Origin: Schlesneria paludicola DSM 18645
Lineage (GTDB): Bacteria; Planctomycetota; Planctomycetia; Planctomycetales; Planctomycetaceae
DNA: 64,000 bases
Direction: 5' to 3'
Assembly: GCA_945876035.1 (NCBI GenBank)
Contig: CAMCMU010000023.1
Coordinates: 1-64,000, forward strand
Each line of letters opens with the position of its first letter. Position 1 is the stretch's first letter. Of this stretch, positions 7,718-17,373 are shown piece after piece. The notes beneath the pieces were generated by a model. That model was given only the letters and a program-made list of their open reading frames with translations. It made no database searches and was not told the DNA's origin. The translations under genes and the position numbers were made by a program.

Positions 7718-8761
7718 TTAATTTCGGTCAATCGATAAATCCACCGGTGATTCATTGAGCACTGGCAACGACAACGCTGTGGAGACGGTTCGTTCCCGAA
7801 ACGGCGATGTCACGTCTTCCGGGGAAAACGAAACAGTAGGCCGGGTATTGGCGTTCATGCGGTGCCGTGCCATGACATGACTTCTGGCCGAGACTTTGAG
7901 AAACTCCAGAATTCGGGCTGATTCGATCCCCTCCAGCTTGTTTCCAATCGATTCAATCCAGCCGGGATGGCGAGCCATTGCCTGTGACATCAGGTGGGCA
8001 AAGAGAGTCATCTGCTTGAAGTTCCGATCCGCAATCGTGTGACTGAGGGGTGAAATCACTTTAGCCAACGTTTCAATCGCTGGCGACGGAAACTCAACAA
8101 ACACGTCACCCGAATGCGTCCCGATGATGCGACCATCGGGCTCCCGTGCGAATGTCGCTTGCAGACGCATCAATGATCTGGCGATGATGGGCCTTTGAAG
8201 GAGTGGACTCTTGAAGGCTCCATCGCAGTGGATTAGCGTGTCATTGGTCGACTGATAGAACAACTCGACCAGACCCACAGAACCGTCACCCGCATCCGCT
8301 CGGTAGCAGTTCAGTCCGGAATTCTGCAGTTTGAATTTCGAAATATCCATCGCACGCCACGTCGCCACAGCGACATCCGGATTTTTCAAAAAGTAGTCGT
8401 AAACTTCGGGATCCGCCTCGAATGACAATGTCGGAAGTCGCCGAAACATTCCGAGATTCTTCAACAGTGATTCTGTCTTGCTCCGTGCTTCATTGGACAG
8501 ACGATCCAGTGGTAGTTCGCTTATCGCCTGTTTTCGCACGCTGATCGATGAGGACCCCGCTTTGATCGTATTCACACCCAATGAGCCAAACGATTCATCC
8601 GCATCCGGTTCATTGTCTACGACCCGAGCGGACGTCGCGGCGGTATCGTCTCGCGACTCATTGGTCTCGACGGCCTGACAAGTCCCTATTATGGAGAGAC
8701 CGACAAAGAGCCATATTGGTAGTACAATGTGGCGACGAGGCCGCATCCGATGACGAATCAT
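7718..8761 (-). CDS. Exported protein of unknown function
   Basis: 347 residues with a basic start and a hydrophobic segment 'IVLPIWLFVGLSIIGTCQA' (about 12-30) that reads as a signal peptide with an AxA-like cleavage site (TCQA). The mature part is soluble and has no motif I recognise. One stretch, 'PEVYDYFLKNPDVAVATWRAMDISKF', followed by a region rich in hydrophobic and aromatic residues, looks conserved-protein-like; this style is common in planctomycete-only families. It is flanked by tandem hairpins after the stop and a 367 bp spacer before the start, so it is probably a single-gene unit. Confidence 0.8.
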   Translation of the reverse strand: MIRHRMRPRRHIVLPIWLFVGLSIIGTCQAVETNESRDDTAATSARVVDNEPDADESFGSLGVNTIKAGSSSISVRKQAISELPLDRLSNEARSKTESLLKNLGMFRRLPTLSFEADPEVYDYFLKNPDVAVATWRAMDISKFKLQNSGLNCYRADAGDGSVGLVELFYQSTNDTLIHCDGAFKSPLLQRPIIARSLMRLQATFAREPDGRIIGTHSGDVFVEFPSPAIETLAKVISPLSHTIADRNFKQMTLFAHLMSQAMARHPGWIESIGNKLEGIESARILEFLKVSARSHVMARHRMNANTRPTVSFSPEDVTSPFRERTVSTALSLPVLNESPVDLSIDRN

Positions 8762-9128: not shown

Positions 9129-9758
9129 ATGCAGCAAACAATCACTGATTTGGTTCATGATGTTGCCGCGCTTCTCCAGCGAACCGAGCGAAAAGTGGTC
9201 TTCGCCGAGAGTTGCACTGGCGGCCTCGTCGCGGCATCACTCGCCCGTGTTCCAGGAATCTCTCAATACCTCTGCGGTTCGGCGGTGGTTTATCGGCTTG
9301 ATACCAAAGCACGATGGCTGGACATTCCAGAATCGCTTCTTCACGATCCGGGTCCCGTCAGTGGCGAAGTTGCGGCTCTAATGGCTGAAGCCGTGCTGAC
9401 TCGAACCCCCGAAGCGGATTTCGCTGTTTCTGTCACCGGGCATCTCGGGCCAGACGCACCCGTTCTTCTCGATGGAACACTGTTTGTTGCCATCGCCAGT
9501 CGCCACGAGGAACATTTCAATCCGTTAAAAAAGAGCGTCACCGCTGACCGGCAGGCAATGCCGGCAAATCGTTATCGAGAAATCGGAAAGTCGATGGTTT
9601 GTGAATATCGACTTCCGGCGGAGCCAAGCGATCGAATCCTGCATCCCGAGGGGAACTTGGAATCTCAGAAAACTTACCCGGCGATGAGTTTTCGAGAGAG
9701 ACGCCAGCAGGGGGCGGTCGAATTCGTGCTGAATTGCCTGATGGACATACTCCTGTGA
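9129..9758 (+). CDS. pncC: CinA-family nicotinamide-nucleotide amidase (PncC-like)
   Basis: CinA C-terminal domain protein, 209 residues. The family deamidates nicotinamide mononucleotide to nicotinate mononucleotide in the pyridine nucleotide salvage cycle. Seen: the signature 'FAESCTGGLVAASLARVPG' (about 25-43), 'GSAVVYRLDTKARWLDI', and 'VSVTGHLGPDAP' at about 99-110, which corresponds to the family 'VTGIAGPGG' loop but is altered. There is a C-terminal tail of about 40 residues beyond the usual domain (PncC is about 165 residues). The MoCF-like N-terminal half of full CinA is absent. It converges on the small lipoprotein gene with only 15 bp between stops. Confidence 0.85.
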   Translation: MQQTITDLVHDVAALLQRTERKVVFAESCTGGLVAASLARVPGISQYLCGSAVVYRLDTKARWLDIPESLLHDPGPVSGEVAALMAEAVLTRTPEADFAVSVTGHLGPDAPVLLDGTLFVAIASRHEEHFNPLKKSVTADRQAMPANRYREIGKSMVCEYRLPAEPSDRILHPEGNLESQKTYPAMSFRERRQQGAVEFVLNCLMDILL

Positions 9759-9773
9759 CATCTGACATTGTGA

Positions 9774-10154
9774 TCAGCCGTCGCGAGGTGCCGGTTCCAG
9801 AGTCGGCGGTTTCGATGATTCCTTTTGTGGTTCCGCTTCTACGGAATTGATGAATCTCTGACTCGGAAAATCGTAAGGGTAACGGGGCGGATAAAGGTGA
9901 CATTCGTCGAATCTCCCCCACGCCCCCTCGCCGCAGCCATACCAGCCGTGGCGTCGACCGTTTGTTCCACACCAGTCGGGTTTGCCAGCGCGACTGATAT
10001 CGAAACGAGGATGATACCAGTTGTCAAAATAGACATGCTTGTCGCTGAGATCATCGACCGCGTTGGCGTACGGATTCAAGAGGGGAGAGCAACGGCATCC
10101 TGCCATGAATCCCGAAAGCAACCACACAAACGGCGACCATCGAACAATTTCCAT
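9774..10154 (-). CDS. Small Cys- and Trp-rich lipoprotein, unknown function
   Basis: 126 residues with a signal peptide ending in a plausible lipobox (SGFMAGC, Cys20). The mature protein begins 'RCSPLLNPYANAVDDLSDKH' and is rich in aromatic residues ('HVYFDNWYHPRFDISRAGKPDWCG'), with a Pro- and Glu-rich end. Similar 'NPY.N.VDD.SD...D..Y.PR.DI.R.GKPDWC' proteins are known to me only as planctomycete hypothetical lipoproteins; this is recall, not a search. Probably anchored in the envelope. It sits 259 bp upstream of, and divergent from, the megasynthase gene. Confidence 0.75.
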   Translation of the reverse strand: MEIVRWSPFVWLLSGFMAGCRCSPLLNPYANAVDDLSDKHVYFDNWYHPRFDISRAGKPDWCGTNGRRHGWYGCGEGAWGRFDECHLYPPRYPYDFPSQRFINSVEAEPQKESSKPPTLEPAPRDG

Positions 10155-10413
10155 CTCAAACTCGCTTTAGGTGTACTCATTCCACCAACAACGACAGAAT
10201 CGGATGCCTCATCAACCATCGACTCGAAAAAGGTTCCGGCTTGAACGGTTCAGACGATTAGACGCTTAAGGACGCGGCGAAATAACTCTGAACAACGGGG
10301 GTTGGAGTGGAGTGCACAAATGGCGGGGGCTATGATGCGCCTTACTTGAACGGTTCAATATAAGGTGCTTGATAGTTTTTTAGTGCTTTTGACACAGAAT
10401 CTACGGAATCTTC
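10155..10413. promoter_or_regulatory. Upstream region of the megasynthase with a repeated dyad
   Basis: The 13-mer CTTGAACGGTTCA, a near-perfect dyad (TTGAAC-G-GTTCA), occurs twice, at 10240-10252 and 10345-10357. The second copy extends to a full 13 bp palindrome (10346-10358). Start-to-start distance is 105 bp, about ten helical turns. It is a candidate paired operator for the divergent lipoprotein and megasynthase genes. Confidence 0.5.
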
Positions 10414-13400
10414 ATGCCTGACGTTGTCAGTACCGAGCGGATCGCCATTGTCGGTCTCGGCGGAATTTTTCCCGGCGCGGCCGATTTGGAAACATTTTGG
10501 CGGAACATTGCCAACGGTGTTGATTCCGGTCAACCGGTGCCGACAGGGCGTTGGTATCTTTCACCAGACAAGGCCTACTCGCCGTGGCCCCCCAAACCCG
10601 ATCGCGTGTACTCCACGTGGGGTTGTTTCATTGAAGGCTTTTCACTCGACCCCGCGGGCCTGGATCTCGATCCCGACCTACTCCTGCGGCTCGATCCCAT
10701 GTTCCATCTCAGTTTACATGCGGCCCGTGGAGCTTTTATTGATGCGCGGCGACTGCGTGGGACCGATCCCGCCCGTATCGGGGTGATTCTGGGCAACATC
10801 GCGTTGCCCACCGAATCCACATCTGGCCTCTGTCGGGATATCCTTGGTCGAACATTCGTGGAAAATCTGATCGATTCCACGCCACTTCCCGACGAAGAAC
10901 GTCGTGCCTTGAAGGCCGGTCTGAAGCGAAGCGACTGGCATCCGCTCAACCGATTTGCCGCGGGTCTTCCATCAAGCCTGATTTGCCAAGCTCTGGGGTT
11001 GAAGGGTTCAGCGTACACACTGGATGCCGCGTGCGCCTCGTCGCTTTATGCATTGAAGTTCGCCTCCGAGGAGTTACTGGCACACCGCGCGGACGCAATG
11101 CTCGCCGGCGGCATTTCGCGACCCGATTGTCAATACACTCAGATGGGTTTTTCACAACTTCAGGCTCTGTCCAAGAGCGGCCGATGCGCGCCTCTCAGCG
11201 CCGCAGCCGATGGACTTGTCGTGGGGGAGGGGGCGGGTATCTTCGTTCTCAAACGGCTAGCCGACGCGGTTCAGGCGAGCGATCAGATTTATGGGGTCAT
11301 TGCCGGTATCGGGTTGTCCAATGATCGCGGCGCAAATCTTCTTGCACCCCATTCTGAAGGGCAACTGCGTGCCATGCGCACCGCTTATAAGCAGGCCGAA
11401 TGGCGTCCGAATGACGTCGATTTGATCGAGTGCCATGCCACCGGAACTCCTGTCGGAGATGCCGTTGAAATTGCCAGTCTGCACGAACTTTGGCGACACG
11501 AATCCTCTCGTCCCCACCAATGCATCATTGGCGGAGTCAAATCAAATGTCGGTCACTTATTGACGGCCGCCGGGTCCGCAGGACTGATGAAGGTGTTGTT
11601 GGCAATGAGGCACAGAATCCTTCCTCCCACAGCCAACTTTGAACAACCTGCAGAAATGCTGGCGAGTCCAGACAGCCCCTTCGAAATACTCAAAACGTCA
11701 CAACCGTGGCCGGAACGCATCGATGGTTCACCCCGTCGAGCGACGATCAATGCCTTTGGATTTGGTGGCATCAATGCCCACTTGCTCGTTGAGGAATGGC
11801 GAATCGGAGTCCGTCCCTCCTTTTCCGATTCCCCCGAGATCGCCCGTCCCGCGTGCGAGACACAACTCGTGGCCATCGTGGGCCAGCAGGAATACTTTGG
11901 AGCGTCTGCTTCCAAGGGTTCCGATTCTGAGGAAACCTGCACATCGCCACAGCAGGGGGTGTCATCCGGCGGTTGGGGAGCAGAGCAGACCGATTGGTTT
12001 CAGCGTGAAGAACGGCCGGATGTGTCGGCGAATACTCGAGGGGTGCCGACCGAAACGCAGGGCCCTGTCATTCGGGAATTGCGTCTGCCTGTGAGTCAGT
12101 TCCGTATTCCCCCGGTTGAATTGCAGGACATGCTGCCCCAGCAGCAATTGATGCTCAAAGTTGCCGCCGGCGCCATCCGTGATTCGCAACGAGCAGGAAC
12201 TCACGAGCCACACTCAGCGTGCAGAACGTCGTCGCGACCAGAGGATCGGGAACAGCCGATCCCGGTCCACAATCGACCTGAATCCAGCTCTGCCAGTCGG
12301 TTGTCTGCTGCAGATCCTTGGTTTGCCGTCACAGACGATCCGACGCGCACCGGAGTCTTCATCGGAATCGAACTCGATCCCAATACAACAAATTTTCACC
12401 TGAGATGGTCCATCGAACAAGATGCGTCTCAGTGGGCGGAAATGCTCGGCTTGAACCTCGCACCACAGGACTTCGATCGATGGATCGCTCAGCTCAAAGA
12501 GGCCGCCAGCCCTGCGCTGACTGCGAATCGCGTGATGGGCAATCTTGGTGGAATCGTCGCCAGCCGATTGGCTCGCGAGTTCGATGTGGGGGGGCCGAGC
12601 TTCACGATTTCCGCAGGAGGCGATTCGGGGGGCGTGGCGTTTGATTTGGCTGTCGGTGCCCTTCAACGAGGCGAGTTGGATCGAGCCATCGTGGGGGCGG
12701 TTGATTTACCGAGTGACATACGAACGGCTCTCTGGGGACGTGAGGTTATTTCCCCAGATGGCGCCACGGCATTCGTCCTGAAGAGACTCGATGATGCCTG
12801 GCGGGATTTAGACCGGGTGCAATCGATCGGCAGAGTCATCTCCTGTCCTGACCAACGACGTTCCTCAAACACGCCGCCACCGCCTCATGAAGCATTCAAC
12901 GCCACGAGTGTCACATCGACACTGCGGACATTGCTGGCGGGACTGTCTCGGCAACAGAATCGCACCGCCGTAGATTCCGACAACAAGACCACCACTCCTG
13001 TTCAGATTGTCAATCGTGCAGAGATCAGCAACGACCTGCTTGTGAAATTACACGGCAACGCGCTGCCGATTGGATTCTTGATCAGTCCCTTTCAAGGAAC
13101 CACCACTGGGCCCTGTGGACGTTCACTTCGCGCCGGCCTGTTTATCGTTGATGGTGAGTCCACCGATGACATTGCCATTCAACTCCAGGCGTTATCCAAC
13201 CACATTGACGTCACACGTCCCGTCGAACATTTGGCGGAACGCTGGTTCAACGCTCGTCCACCGGATCCACAACGCCGATTGGCGGTGTCTCTGCTTGTCA
13301 GAACACCCGAAGAACTCAAGGACGTTCTTGCCATAGCACAGACCCAATTGAGAGGTGAGGCCCGATCCCATGTGGCCGATCCACGGGTCTTTTTTTCTCA

Positions 13401-16400
13401 ACAGCCGCTGGGCCACGCCGGTCGATTGTCTTTTGTCTTTCCTGGCTCCGGAAACGTATTTCTGAAAATGGGGCACGATTTATTAGCGGCATTTCCAGAA
13501 GTACTGCAACGCCAGCACGCGGAAAACAGACAACTGCGAGATCAATTTCGACCGAATCTCGCTTGGGAGGCGAATTCCACGAGTCGCCTCCTCGCCGACC
13601 ACAAGGCCATGATTTTTTCGCAGGTGGCGATCGGTACCGCCATTTGTGATTTGCTCGCGATGCTCGGCGTGTTCCCGTCGGCCAGTATCGGCTATAGCCT
13701 TGGTGAATCTGCGGCGCTGTTTGCCCTTCGAGCGTGGACCGATCGCGACGAAATGCTCCATCGCCTCAACCAATCACCGCTGTTTGGCAGCGATCTTGTT
13801 GCACCGTTCGACGCCGCCCGCAAGGTATGGAACATTGAGCATGGCCAGGACGTTCCTTGGATTTCTGGCACGATTGATCGATCCTGCCATCAGATTCGCA
13901 CCGCACTGCGTGGGCGGGATCGAGTTTACCTGCTAATCATTAATACGCCGACGCAGTGTGTGATTGGCGGCGATCGCTCGCAAGTGAGTCAACTCGCCAG
14001 CGAACTTGGTGCTCAGTTTGTTCCGTTCCCAGCACCCAGTTCTGTCCATTGCGTCGTGTTGCGAGAAGTCGAACAGGCGTACCGCACACTGCATCTCCTG
14101 CCGATCAAGGAATCCCCTATTCCAACGTGGGCGGAGTGTGATCCAGATTCCCGAGACGCGTCTTGTCTCCCGCCCGGCGCCTCCACGAACTTCGGCCCCT
14201 CAAGCATCGACTACTACAGCACGGCGTGGGGCCATACGTACGAGCTGACACAGGACTCGGCTGCTGAAGCGATCGTTTCTCAAGCGGTGACGACAATTGA
14301 TTTTCCCCAAGTTGTGCAGCAGGCTTATGCCGACGGCGTCCGACTGTTTGTCGAGATCGGCCCGGGATCATCGTGTACGAAATGGATCACCGAAATCTTG
14401 GGAGACAAACCGCATCTGGTCCGAGCGGCCTTGCCGGCCACAGCGGACCCGATCGGAAACTTTCTGGCACTTCTGGCGGCGTTGATTGCCGAACGAGTTC
14501 CCGTCGATCTGTTCTGTTTGTACGGCAAGCCGGTCAATGAGAATCGAAACACGTCCATTTCTCCCACCGCGTCAGATGTTGTGACACGTCTGAATGGAAA
14601 ACCGTTCGAGATTCCCATTCCACCGGCAGGATGGGTCCTCAAACCTGTCCCTTCCGTTCCGCGTTCGACAGTCGCCCCCTTATTGGCTCAACTTCAACTC
14701 ATGAACAACCACCGAACAGAGACTCACGAGGCATTTCTGCGTTTTTCGGCTCGAACCGAGATCTTGGCCGCCGAGCATCTGGCAGCTCTCGCTGCCGTTG
14801 ATGCCATGATTCCTGCCAAGAAGCACGAACAGGCCAAGCCATCCACGATTCGAGACGACACTCCCAAGCTCTCGGACGTCCCTCCGACATCACTCACACG
14901 CGAACAGTGCCTGATGTTTGCCATGGGTCCTATCGGCGATGTGTTGGGCACAAAGTTCGCTGCCATCGATGCGCATCCATCACGAGTCCGCCTGCCCAAT
15001 GAACCGCTGATGCTGGTCGATCGAATCCTGCGTATTGAAGGCGTGCCACTGTCGATGTCTGCAGGTCGGATCGTCACGGAACATGATATCAAACCAGGGG
15101 CATGGTATCTGGACTCAGAACGCATCCCCACCTGCATCGCCGTGGAATCGGGGCAGGCAGACTTATTCCTTTCGGGCTGGCTTGGGATCGACGTCGAAAC
15201 AAAAGGACTCGCAAAATATCGATTGCTCGATGCTGTCGTGACATTTCACGATGCACTACCCGGCCCCGGAAACGTGATCCGTTACGACATCCGTATTCTG
15301 CATTTTTTCAGGCAGGGTCTGACCTATTTGTTCCGGTTTGAATTCGATGCCACCGTCGATGGCCGTCCCTTGCTGACCATGCGAGAAGGTTGCGCAGGCT
15401 TCTTTACAGAAGCGGACCTCGCACAGGGCAGGGGAGTGATTCATACGGCGCTCGATCGGCAACCCCGCCCCGGAAAACGACCCGCCGACTGGCGGGAGCC
15501 GGTCCCGATGTCAGTTGAAAGCTACGACGATTCACAACTTCTGGCGCTTCGACAAGGCAAGTTGTCGACATGCTTTGGCCCGTTGTTTTCTGGTTTGTCG
15601 TTGCGAAATCCGACGACGATTCCGGGAATCCTTCCGAATGAATCGGTAGGGATTGGCGGCCATTCTCCGACGTCCATGCCAAGGCGGTCACCAATGTGGC
15701 TGATCGACCGCGTGCTGAAACTGGATCCTTGCGGCGGCAAGTATGGAATAGGCTCGATTCTCGGAGAACTCGACATTCACCCGGACGATTGGTTCTTAAC
15801 CTGCCATTTTTGTGACGACCCGGTCATGCCGGGCACATTGATGTATGAGTGCTGTCTCCACACGTTGCGAATTTTTCTGTTGCGGATGGGTTGGATCGGT
15901 GAACAGCGCGAGGTCATTTATGAGCCGATTCCGGAGATTCGCAGTCGTCTCAAATGTCGGGGACAGGTCCTCGGTTCAACGCGAAAAGTCTGGTACGAGG
16001 TGACCTTGAAAGAAGTCGGCTACGGGCCGGATGCCTATTGCCTTGCCGATGCCTTGATGTATGCCGATGGCAAACCGATTGTTGAAATCAGCGACATGTC
16101 GGTTCGACTATCGGGGCTGACGTCTTTGAAAGTCACCCACTTGTGGGCCAACAAACGAATCCCCTCGGTCGGGAATCAGGGGACAGGAATACCCCTGAGT
16201 AGTGGTTCCAACTCCACGTCCAGTCGCCAGCGTGGCTCTCCAATTTCTGCCTACGATATTCGTCCGGGACTCTTCGATTCGGCCCGGATCACGGCCTTTG
16301 CCATCGGCAAGCCCTCGGATGCCTTTGGAGAACGATATCGCGTTTTTGACGATCAGCGGCAGATTGCTCGACTGCCGGGACCGCCATTTCAGTTTCTTGA

Positions 16401-17373
16401 CCGAATTGTCTCGATCGAAAACTGTCAACCATGGATCCTCGAAGCGGGAGGCGAAATCGTCGCCCAGTACGACATTCCGGTGGATGCGTGGTACTTCGCC
16501 GCAAATCGTCAGCAGACAATACCATTTGCGATCCTGCTCGAGACGGCGCTTCAGCCCTGCGGCTGGCTGGCGGGATACCTCGGTTCGGCTCTGAAAAGTG
16601 AAACAGATCTGTCGTTCCGAAACTTGGGCGGCAAGGCGACGCAATTGCGCCAAGTCACCGCAGGATCGGGGACACTCACGACCACCGTCAAAATCACGCG
16701 TGTCTCACAGTCCGGCGGGATCATCATTCAAAATTTCGACTACGCCTTGAGTTGCAATGGCCAGCCGGTTTATGTGGGAAACACTTACTTTGGTTTTTTT
16801 TCCAAGGCCTCGCTGAAAAATCAGTTAGGCATTCGTGAGGCACAGCCCTTCCGGCCCTCAAGTGAAGATTCCGCCCGAGCGAAACGCTTCGATTCGCCAG
16901 ACACAGCCCCCTTTGCGAATCCCTCATTTCAGATGGTCGATCGCGTAGAACTCTCCTGTGACGGCGGACCACACGGCTTGGGATATGCACGGGGGACCAT
17001 GCAGGTCAATCCAAATCTCTGGTTCTTCAAAGCACACTTCTACCAAGATCCGGTTGTCCCAGGATCTCTGGGTCTGGAGTCCTTTTTTCAACTTCTCAAG
17101 TTTTATGCCGTCGCGCGTTGGGATCTCGGCGCGGACACGCAATTCGCCACGCCGTCACTCACTTGCGATCCGGCCACGAGCAACCCACCTGCCCACGAAT
17201 GGATTTATCGAGGCCAAGTGGTTCCGGGCGACGAGTTGGTGACTGTCACGGCCGTGATTCAGTCCGTGGATCAGACACACCGGCAAGTGATGGCTGAGGG
17301 TTATTTGTCGGTCGACGGTCGAGTGATCTACCACATCAAACACTTCACGATCCAAGTCTTGGCCGATGCGTAA
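10414..17373 (+). CDS. PfaB/PfaC-like lipid megasynthase: KS-CLF-AT-DH-DH
   Basis: 2319-residue iterative fatty acid/polyketide synthase subunit. Domains in order: (1) ketosynthase, about 1-455, with Cys207 (DAACASS), His341 (ECHATGTP) and His381 (KSNVGHLL), so a complete triad; (2) a second ketosynthase-like domain, about 540-800, where 'FTISAGGDSGG' puts Gly736 at the Cys position, i.e. a chain-length-factor type; (3) acyltransferase, about 1005-1370, with 'FPGSG' 1009-1013, GYSLGES with Ser1095, and probable His1212; (4) two FabA-like dehydratase modules, each a double hotdog: a His-less half (about 1527-1680; 1990-2150) and a catalytic half (about 1760-1905 with 'HFCDDPVMPG', His1798; about 2170-2318 with 'HFYQDPVVPG', His2208). 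This matches PfaC (KS-CLF-DH-DH) of polyunsaturated fatty acid synthases with a PfaB-type AT inserted. I see no acyl-carrier, ketoreductase or enoylreductase domain, and no PfaA, PfaD or PPTase gene nearby. The product is unknown. Confidence 0.88.
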   Translation: MPDVVSTERIAIVGLGGIFPGAADLETFWRNIANGVDSGQPVPTGRWYLSPDKAYSPWPPKPDRVYSTWGCFIEGFSLDPAGLDLDPDLLLRLDPMFHLSLHAARGAFIDARRLRGTDPARIGVILGNIALPTESTSGLCRDILGRTFVENLIDSTPLPDEERRALKAGLKRSDWHPLNRFAAGLPSSLICQALGLKGSAYTLDAACASSLYALKFASEELLAHRADAMLAGGISRPDCQYTQMGFSQLQALSKSGRCAPLSAAADGLVVGEGAGIFVLKRLADAVQASDQIYGVIAGIGLSNDRGANLLAPHSEGQLRAMRTAYKQAEWRPNDVDLIECHATGTPVGDAVEIASLHELWRHESSRPHQCIIGGVKSNVGHLLTAAGSAGLMKVLLAMRHRILPPTANFEQPAEMLASPDSPFEILKTSQPWPERIDGSPRRATINAFGFGGINAHLLVEEWRIGVRPSFSDSPEIARPACETQLVAIVGQQEYFGASASKGSDSEETCTSPQQGVSSGGWGAEQTDWFQREERPDVSANTRGVPTETQGPVIRELRLPVSQFRIPPVELQDMLPQQQLMLKVAAGAIRDSQRAGTHEPHSACRTSSRPEDREQPIPVHNRPESSSASRLSAADPWFAVTDDPTRTGVFIGIELDPNTTNFHLRWSIEQDASQWAEMLGLNLAPQDFDRWIAQLKEAASPALTANRVMGNLGGIVASRLAREFDVGGPSFTISAGGDSGGVAFDLAVGALQRGELDRAIVGAVDLPSDIRTALWGREVISPDGATAFVLKRLDDAWRDLDRVQSIGRVISCPDQRRSSNTPPPPHEAFNATSVTSTLRTLLAGLSRQQNRTAVDSDNKTTTPVQIVNRAEISNDLLVKLHGNALPIGFLISPFQGTTTGPCGRSLRAGLFIVDGESTDDIAIQLQALSNHIDVTRPVEHLAERWFNARPPDPQRRLAVSLLVRTPEELKDVLAIAQTQLRGEARSHVADPRVFFSQQPLGHAGRLSFVFPGSGNVFLKMGHDLLAAFPEVLQRQHAENRQLRDQFRPNLAWEANSTSRLLADHKAMIFSQVAIGTAICDLLAMLGVFPSASIGYSLGESAALFALRAWTDRDEMLHRLNQSPLFGSDLVAPFDAARKVWNIEHGQDVPWISGTIDRSCHQIRTALRGRDRVYLLIINTPTQCVIGGDRSQVSQLASELGAQFVPFPAPSSVHCVVLREVEQAYRTLHLLPIKESPIPTWAECDPDSRDASCLPPGASTNFGPSSIDYYSTAWGHTYELTQDSAAEAIVSQAVTTIDFPQVVQQAYADGVRLFVEIGPGSSCTKWITEILGDKPHLVRAALPATADPIGNFLALLAALIAERVPVDLFCLYGKPVNENRNTSISPTASDVVTRLNGKPFEIPIPPAGWVLKPVPSVPRSTVAPLLAQLQLMNNHRTETHEAFLRFSARTEILAAEHLAALAAVDAMIPAKKHEQAKPSTIRDDTPKLSDVPPTSLTREQCLMFAMGPIGDVLGTKFAAIDAHPSRVRLPNEPLMLVDRILRIEGVPLSMSAGRIVTEHDIKPGAWYLDSERIPTCIAVESGQADLFLSGWLGIDVETKGLAKYRLLDAVVTFHDALPGPGNVIRYDIRILHFFRQGLTYLFRFEFDATVDGRPLLTMREGCAGFFTEADLAQGRGVIHTALDRQPRPGKRPADWREPVPMSVESYDDSQLLALRQGKLSTCFGPLFSGLSLRNPTTIPGILPNESVGIGGHSPTSMPRRSPMWLIDRVLKLDPCGGKYGIGSILGELDIHPDDWFLTCHFCDDPVMPGTLMYECCLHTLRIFLLRMGWIGEQREVIYEPIPEIRSRLKCRGQVLGSTRKVWYEVTLKEVGYGPDAYCLADALMYADGKPIVEISDMSVRLSGLTSLKVTHLWANKRIPSVGNQGTGIPLSSGSNSTSSRQRGSPISAYDIRPGLFDSARITAFAIGKPSDAFGERYRVFDDQRQIARLPGPPFQFLDRIVSIENCQPWILEAGGEIVAQYDIPVDAWYFAANRQQTIPFAILLETALQPCGWLAGYLGSALKSETDLSFRNLGGKATQLRQVTAGSGTLTTTVKITRVSQSGGIIIQNFDYALSCNGQPVYVGNTYFGFFSKASLKNQLGIREAQPFRPSSEDSARAKRFDSPDTAPFANPSFQMVDRVELSCDGGPHGLGYARGTMQVNPNLWFFKAHFYQDPVVPGSLGLESFFQLLKFYAVARWDLGADTQFATPSLTCDPATSNPPAHEWIYRGQVVPGDELVTVTAVIQSVDQTHRQVMAEGYLSVDGRVIYHIKHFTIQVLADA

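Follow-up and report, generated by a model that had tools for sequence, protein, structure and literature searches.

What does a gene for one part of a Pfa synthase do when none of its usual partners stands beside it? The question is raised by a single uninterrupted open reading frame at 10414-17373 (+) of the window (the whole 64,000-nucleotide stretch of Schlesneria paludicola DNA that was analyzed), encoding a protein of 2319 amino acids. The first-pass annotation offered two answers, partners elsewhere in the genome or another pathway that draws on a free ACP, and expected a new or unusual lipid as the product. In our reading, held with a probability of roughly 85%, this frame is the pfaBC gene of a Pfa synthase that resembles Type I, has its genes scattered, and feeds the Ole pathway to yield the hydrocarbon C31:9.

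The protein itself presents few surprises: it is a PfaBC subunit of a known kind in an unusual gene arrangement, orthologous to the pfaBC genes of linked clusters. A catalytic ketosynthase (KS) domain (residues 8-463; 10435-11802 (+)) is recognized by Pfam at residues 8-285 and 293-410 (PF00109 and PF02801) and has the PfaC structure 6riw as its top PDB match; its catalytic residues Cys207, His341, and His381 are conserved across the 33 aligned proteins. A second KS-like domain follows (residues 486-900, approximate limits; 11869-13113 (+)), identified as chain-length factor-like (CLF) by alignment to the CLF of 6riw and by the structural model with Foldseek. Here the motif SAGGDS (residues 733-738) places Gly736 at the position of the Cys, and a Cys is never found there in any of the 33 proteins. 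The PfaB-like acyltransferase (AT) domain (residues ~1007-1333; 13432-14412 (+)) carries Ser1095 within GYSLGES (residues 1093-1099); Pfam recognizes it at 1007-1201 (PF00698), and NCBIfam detects PfaB-family similarity at 1002-1201, with partial matches to TIGR02816 (pfaB_fam) and MdcH. Two double-hotdog dehydratase (DH) didomains complete the protein, at residues ~1488-1900 (14875-16113 (+), with FabA structures as further support) and ~1953-2316 (16270-17361 (+), with conservation as further support). Together they contain four FabA-like hotdog stretches (PF07977), the second and fourth of which retain His motifs (CHFCDDPVMPG at 1797, with His1798, and AHFYQDPVVPG at 2207, with His2208).

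The order KS-CLF-AT-DH2 therefore resides in one protein in which Pfam found neither an ACP (PF00550) nor a KR at E<1. Judged from the alignment, the expected active-site set is complete: Cys-His-His in the KS, no Cys in the CLF, Ser in the AT, and His motifs in the DH domains. A predicted model of the KS-CLF region (residues 1-986; mean pLDDT 78, pTM 0.80) has the PfaC KS-CLF 6riw as its top Foldseek match (E 3e-56, TM 0.70/0.75), and sequence search agrees that this is the nearest solved structure. In a KS tree, the window KS clusters with those of PfaBC proteins and apart from those of PfaA. Pfam, NCBIfam, alignment, and model thus bear out the domain reading of the first-pass annotation (an active-type KS, a KS-like domain with Gly736, an AT, and two double-hotdog modules, arranged as in PfaC apart from an inserted PfaB-like AT, with neither ACP nor KR), and the KS tree agrees with it. 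The CLF loop that is the counterpart of the KS catalytic-Cys loop (window 12610-12630, residues 733-739) is highly variable among relatives, which have Gly, Ala, Glu, Asp, Gln, and other residues at the Cys position.

Fusions of this type are already known. KS-CLF-AT-DH2 pfaBC fusions have been described for Pfa types C and D, and a “pfaBC fusion” for types H and I (PMC3098273). The heterocyst glycolipid protein HglC (Type F; PMC3098273) has the KS-CLF-AT order in common with the window protein but not the dehydratase pair, and an HglC-type identity was rejected because both didomains are present here. The closest described system is the Type I “secondary lipid” Pfa synthase of Geobacter and its relatives and of Gemmata obscuriglobus (PMC3098273), which has the same pfaBC fusion, the same pfaD-pfaA partners, and, as in the window's system, ole genes beside it or within reach. 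Geobacter-type proteins are ~46-48% identical to the window protein over the best tblastn segment. The difference lies in organization. Type I genes form one cluster, whereas the window's genome has pfaDA, pfaBC, oleAB, oleC, and oleD at separate places on several contigs, and the published clustering is not found.

Around pfaBC, CinA (PF02464) is encoded upstream, and downstream on the opposite strand are XdhC, as the first-pass annotation had noted, and a metallo-hydrolase-like open reading frame whose Pfam match is under the cut-off. That annotation also saw no partners at the locus, and a profile search found neither pfaA nor pfaD, and no pfa cluster, on the 69,646 bases of contig C23. The gene sits inside C23 with other genes on either side, and pfaD and pfaBC are also separated on four finished chromosomes (see below), which together exclude a contig-break artifact. 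Immediate flanking genes vary among most Schlesneria genomes, and synteny is largely unconserved in the genus. The upstream frames at 7718-8761, 9129-9758 (cinA), and 9825-10244 are also near pfaBC in genome G010, and the first two of these in G213.

The partners are encoded elsewhere in the window's own assembly, a draft of 4.71 Mb in 102 contigs that was searched with PfaA and PfaD models. pfaD lies at C47:32463-33779 (646.8 bits, above the curated cut-off). The N-terminal frame of pfaA begins 4 bases past it and runs off the contig end, and an end of C12 carries a C-terminal ACP-KR-DH portion in the continuing frame. The ends of C47 and C12 overlap exactly over 82 bases within an ACP repeat, the usual sign of an assembly breaking at tandem ACPs. 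Joined across the two contigs, pfaA would encode KS-AT-ACP(2 or more)-KR-DH, with at least 2 ACPs; the complete pfaA genes of the finished relatives G003, G015, and G114 have 3-6 ACP motifs. A candidate Sfp/HetI-type PPTase on C10 is HetI-like, under that model's cut-off. The genome accordingly holds genes for PfaA and PfaD and a candidate PPTase, all unlinked to pfaBC, which decides the alternative left by the first-pass annotation in favor of partners elsewhere.

By orthology to linked-cluster genes, the genome also appears to hold all four ole genes, with OleA-OleB on C1 and OleC and OleD on C3, 36 kb apart. OleA has 3row/3s21 as its top PDB matches, which we take to be Xanthomonas OleA; the best specific match of OleC, under the cut-off, is olefin beta-lactone synthetase. 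At 402 residues, this OleA (L174:6181-7386, G000 C1), like its orthologs elsewhere in the family, exceeds the ~350-residue OleA of linked clusters by ~50, and residues 241-289 are missing from the alignment to the nearest solved structure, 3s21. The fabF-like genes on C5 were not counted as Pfa parts: they adjoin PlsX-like and FabD-like frames and on reading look like primary fatty-acid synthesis. A large PKS/NRPS locus that begins with an AMP-ligase (G000:C2:157000-174000, L014) is separate from the Pfa genes.

Relatives show the genes linked. Both in Geobacter-like bacteria and in planctomycetes of other families, pfaD and pfaA directly precede pfaBC. The genes after pfaBC often encode an OleA-like thiolase, OleB (an alpha/beta hydrolase), OleC (an AMP-ligase), and OleD (a 3-beta-HSD-type reductase). 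Genome G058 has all seven in a row (pfaD-pfaA-pfaBC-oleA-oleB-oleC-oleD), an order kept in part at Geobacter-like and Singulisphaera loci. Among the 60 genomes outside Planctomycetaceae with mapped coordinates, pfaD and pfaBC are within 20 kb in 52 and on separate draft contigs in the other 8; in none are they far apart on one contig.

Three lines of published work, taken together, suggest what such a system would make. In Shewanella and Photobacterium, OleA connects the Pfa pathway to the Ole pathway by accepting from PfaA an acyl-ACP, predicted to be 16:4, on the way to 31:9; dependence of 31:9 on pfa and oleA was shown in Shewanella only (PMC6463001). Type I Pfa clusters, one from a planctomycete included, have been suggested to supply olefin precursors (PMC3098273). 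C31:8 and C31:9 hydrocarbons are noted for Planctomycetes in a passage of PMC2649909 that cites the descriptions of Schlesneria paludicola and Singulisphaera acidiphila, so that C31:9 in Schlesneria is reported there at second hand and at genus level. From these we infer that pfaBC feeds OleABCD, and that C31:9, an already known polyunsaturated hydrocarbon of 31 carbons, is the most likely product. The new or unusual lipid of the first-pass annotation is not supported, given the co-occurrence with PfaD (see below), the linked pfaA-pfaBC-oleA order, and the C31:9 cited for Schlesneria. The scattered genes offer a genetic basis for that second-hand report; the planctomycete metabolite reviews PMC12078418 and PMC10896814 mention neither Pfa nor olefins.

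A physical interaction, activity, and product can be proposed for PfaBC on this model. The Sfp/HetI-type PPTase would first arm the ACPs of PfaA, which would then carry the growing chain. PfaBC would work with two partners supplied in trans from other contigs, the enoyl reductase PfaD and PfaA (KS-AT-tandem ACPs-KR-DH): the KS-CLF of PfaBC would extend the chain and set its length, its AT would act on acyl groups, and its FabA-type dehydratase/isomerases would place methylene-interrupted double bonds. OleA would receive the polyunsaturated acyl-ACP, which is 16:4 in the model drawn from Shewanella and Photobacterium, and condense two head to head, with OleC, OleB, and OleD completing C31:9. 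The pfaEABCD and oleABCD systems of those bacteria (PMC6463001) match this one in enzymatic domains and in the transfer from Pfa to OleA that leads to 31:9, but they keep pfaB and pfaC as two genes, also produce EPA or DHA, and have pfa and ole in operons that are sometimes adjacent.

One Pfa synthase can yield both EPA and the 31:9 precursor (PMC6463001), and this invites an alternative in which the scattered synthase is functional but makes chiefly polyunsaturated fatty acids for membranes, or some other acyl product, with the ole genes serving it just in part or working on ordinary fatty acids. Pfa clusters with no oleA in the stretch around them do exist (G039, the second copy in G058, and G274), so feeding Ole is not obligatory for a Pfa synthase, and with the genes unlinked in the window's genome co-regulation is not guaranteed. 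Against this, the OleA ortholog tracks pfa within Planctomycetaceae. Of the 17 pfaBC-bearing genomes searched, 15 have a close ortholog (72-90% identity) and a 16th has a fragment, whereas pfa-lacking members of the family have a distant match, ~45% identical over part of the protein. Adjacency of pfaBC and oleA also survives in several members of the family, and C31:9 is cited, if indirectly, for Schlesneria itself. We regard this alternative as unlikely. The clusters without oleA belong to a second, divergent pfaD-pfaA-pfaBC type (G058:C63:40001-60000, L071; G039:C1:256001-276000, L070; G274:C60:28001-48000, L189), which may make another product; its dehydratase region is 33-35% identical to that of the window, and the PfaBC, PfaD, and KS trees all set it apart.

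The other half of the original alternative, an enzyme that acts alone with a free ACP in some other pathway, draws on the isolation of pfaBC in the window and on immediate neighbors that differ between most Schlesneria genomes. It is hard to reconcile with the presence of pfaD and pfaA in the same genome, with the placement of the protein among linked pfaBC genes in trees, and above all with a near-perfect correlation of pfaBC with pfaD. Across 398 genomes of the class, with pfaBC scored by its dehydratase region at a threshold of 1e-50, both genes are present in 128, pfaD alone in 12, pfaBC alone in 2, and neither in 256; both thus occur in 128 of the 142 genomes having either. Fisher's test gives p 4e-87, a value that ignores shared ancestry and is outweighed by the table itself. 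The 12 genomes with pfaD and no pfaBC match at that threshold are mostly fragmented drafts, but G044, G048, and G166 may be genuine exceptions. The free-ACP pathway was rejected on this co-occurrence and is very improbable.

Returning to the scattered Pfa-Ole system, the loss of linkage can be followed within Planctomycetaceae. No member of a dispersed clade that includes Schlesneria, to which the nearest named relatives also assign the window's genome, has pfaD and pfaBC within 20 kb. On four finished chromosomes (G003, G015, G094, and G114) the genes are 3.6-5.3 Mb apart in coordinates, or 1.6-3.5 Mb by the shorter way round, and in 17 drafts they are on separate contigs. G274, with the divergent cluster type, is the sole linked case in the family; in G307, where the pieces reach contig ends, the genes could be linked across those ends. 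Quick trees with SH-aLRT support only recover the dispersed clade, 16 members included, as one branch for both PfaBC (support 100) and PfaD (99). The simplest reading is that the genes were separated once, early in the history of the clade, and then descended vertically. Clustering is a matter of organization only: the genes of the clade that lost it share descent with clustered ones. That pfaBC is instead a nonfunctional, decaying remnant of a Pfa cluster, as lost linkage in a draft genome might hint, is scarcely credible given an intact frame of 2319 codons, KS, AT, and both DH catalytic motifs retained in every dispersed-clade member aligned, and pfaBC in 15/15 Schlesneria genomes searched, the window's included, though split over contigs or frames in the fragmented assemblies G004, G006, G009, and G014.

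The ole genes appear to have departed in turn after pfaBC left pfaDA, an order read from present-day arrangements. In genera g44 and g54, pfaBC-oleA-oleB-oleC are still together, followed in G075 and G156 by an OleD-like gene; in Planctopirus (g46) and G015, pfaBC and oleA are still paired; and in most Schlesneria pfaBC is alone, G009 being an exception with oleA ~150 bases downstream. Stepwise scattering of the whole Pfa-Ole pathway into ~5 unlinked loci, with all parts kept, is well supported. The joint proposition that this occurred and that the Pfa synthase later gained a second product beside C31:9 is speculative and rather doubtful. The genome set shows one pathway losing gene order in stages without gene loss, and it cautions that gene-cluster searches can miss or misread planctomycete pathways.

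A case in point may be Planctomyces (Planctopirus) limnophilus, a member of the same family with the same pfaD-pfaA pair as the window's genome, for which pfaD-pfaA only (Type J, ACP3) was described as “apparently partial” (PMC3098273). In G114, which we take as P. limnophila, pfaA carries 3 ACP motifs, in agreement with the ACP3 of Type J, and pfaBC lies megabases from pfaD-pfaA on the chromosome, followed by oleA. If G114 is that strain, the Type J set would be complete, because pfaBC is located elsewhere, next to oleA; this would correct the published view of a partial cluster, a point of modest novelty. Elsewhere in the genome set, pfaD is read in two overlapping or abutting frames at G231:C4:768126-769438 and G275:C5:756241-757553, as a frameshift or sequencing error would produce.
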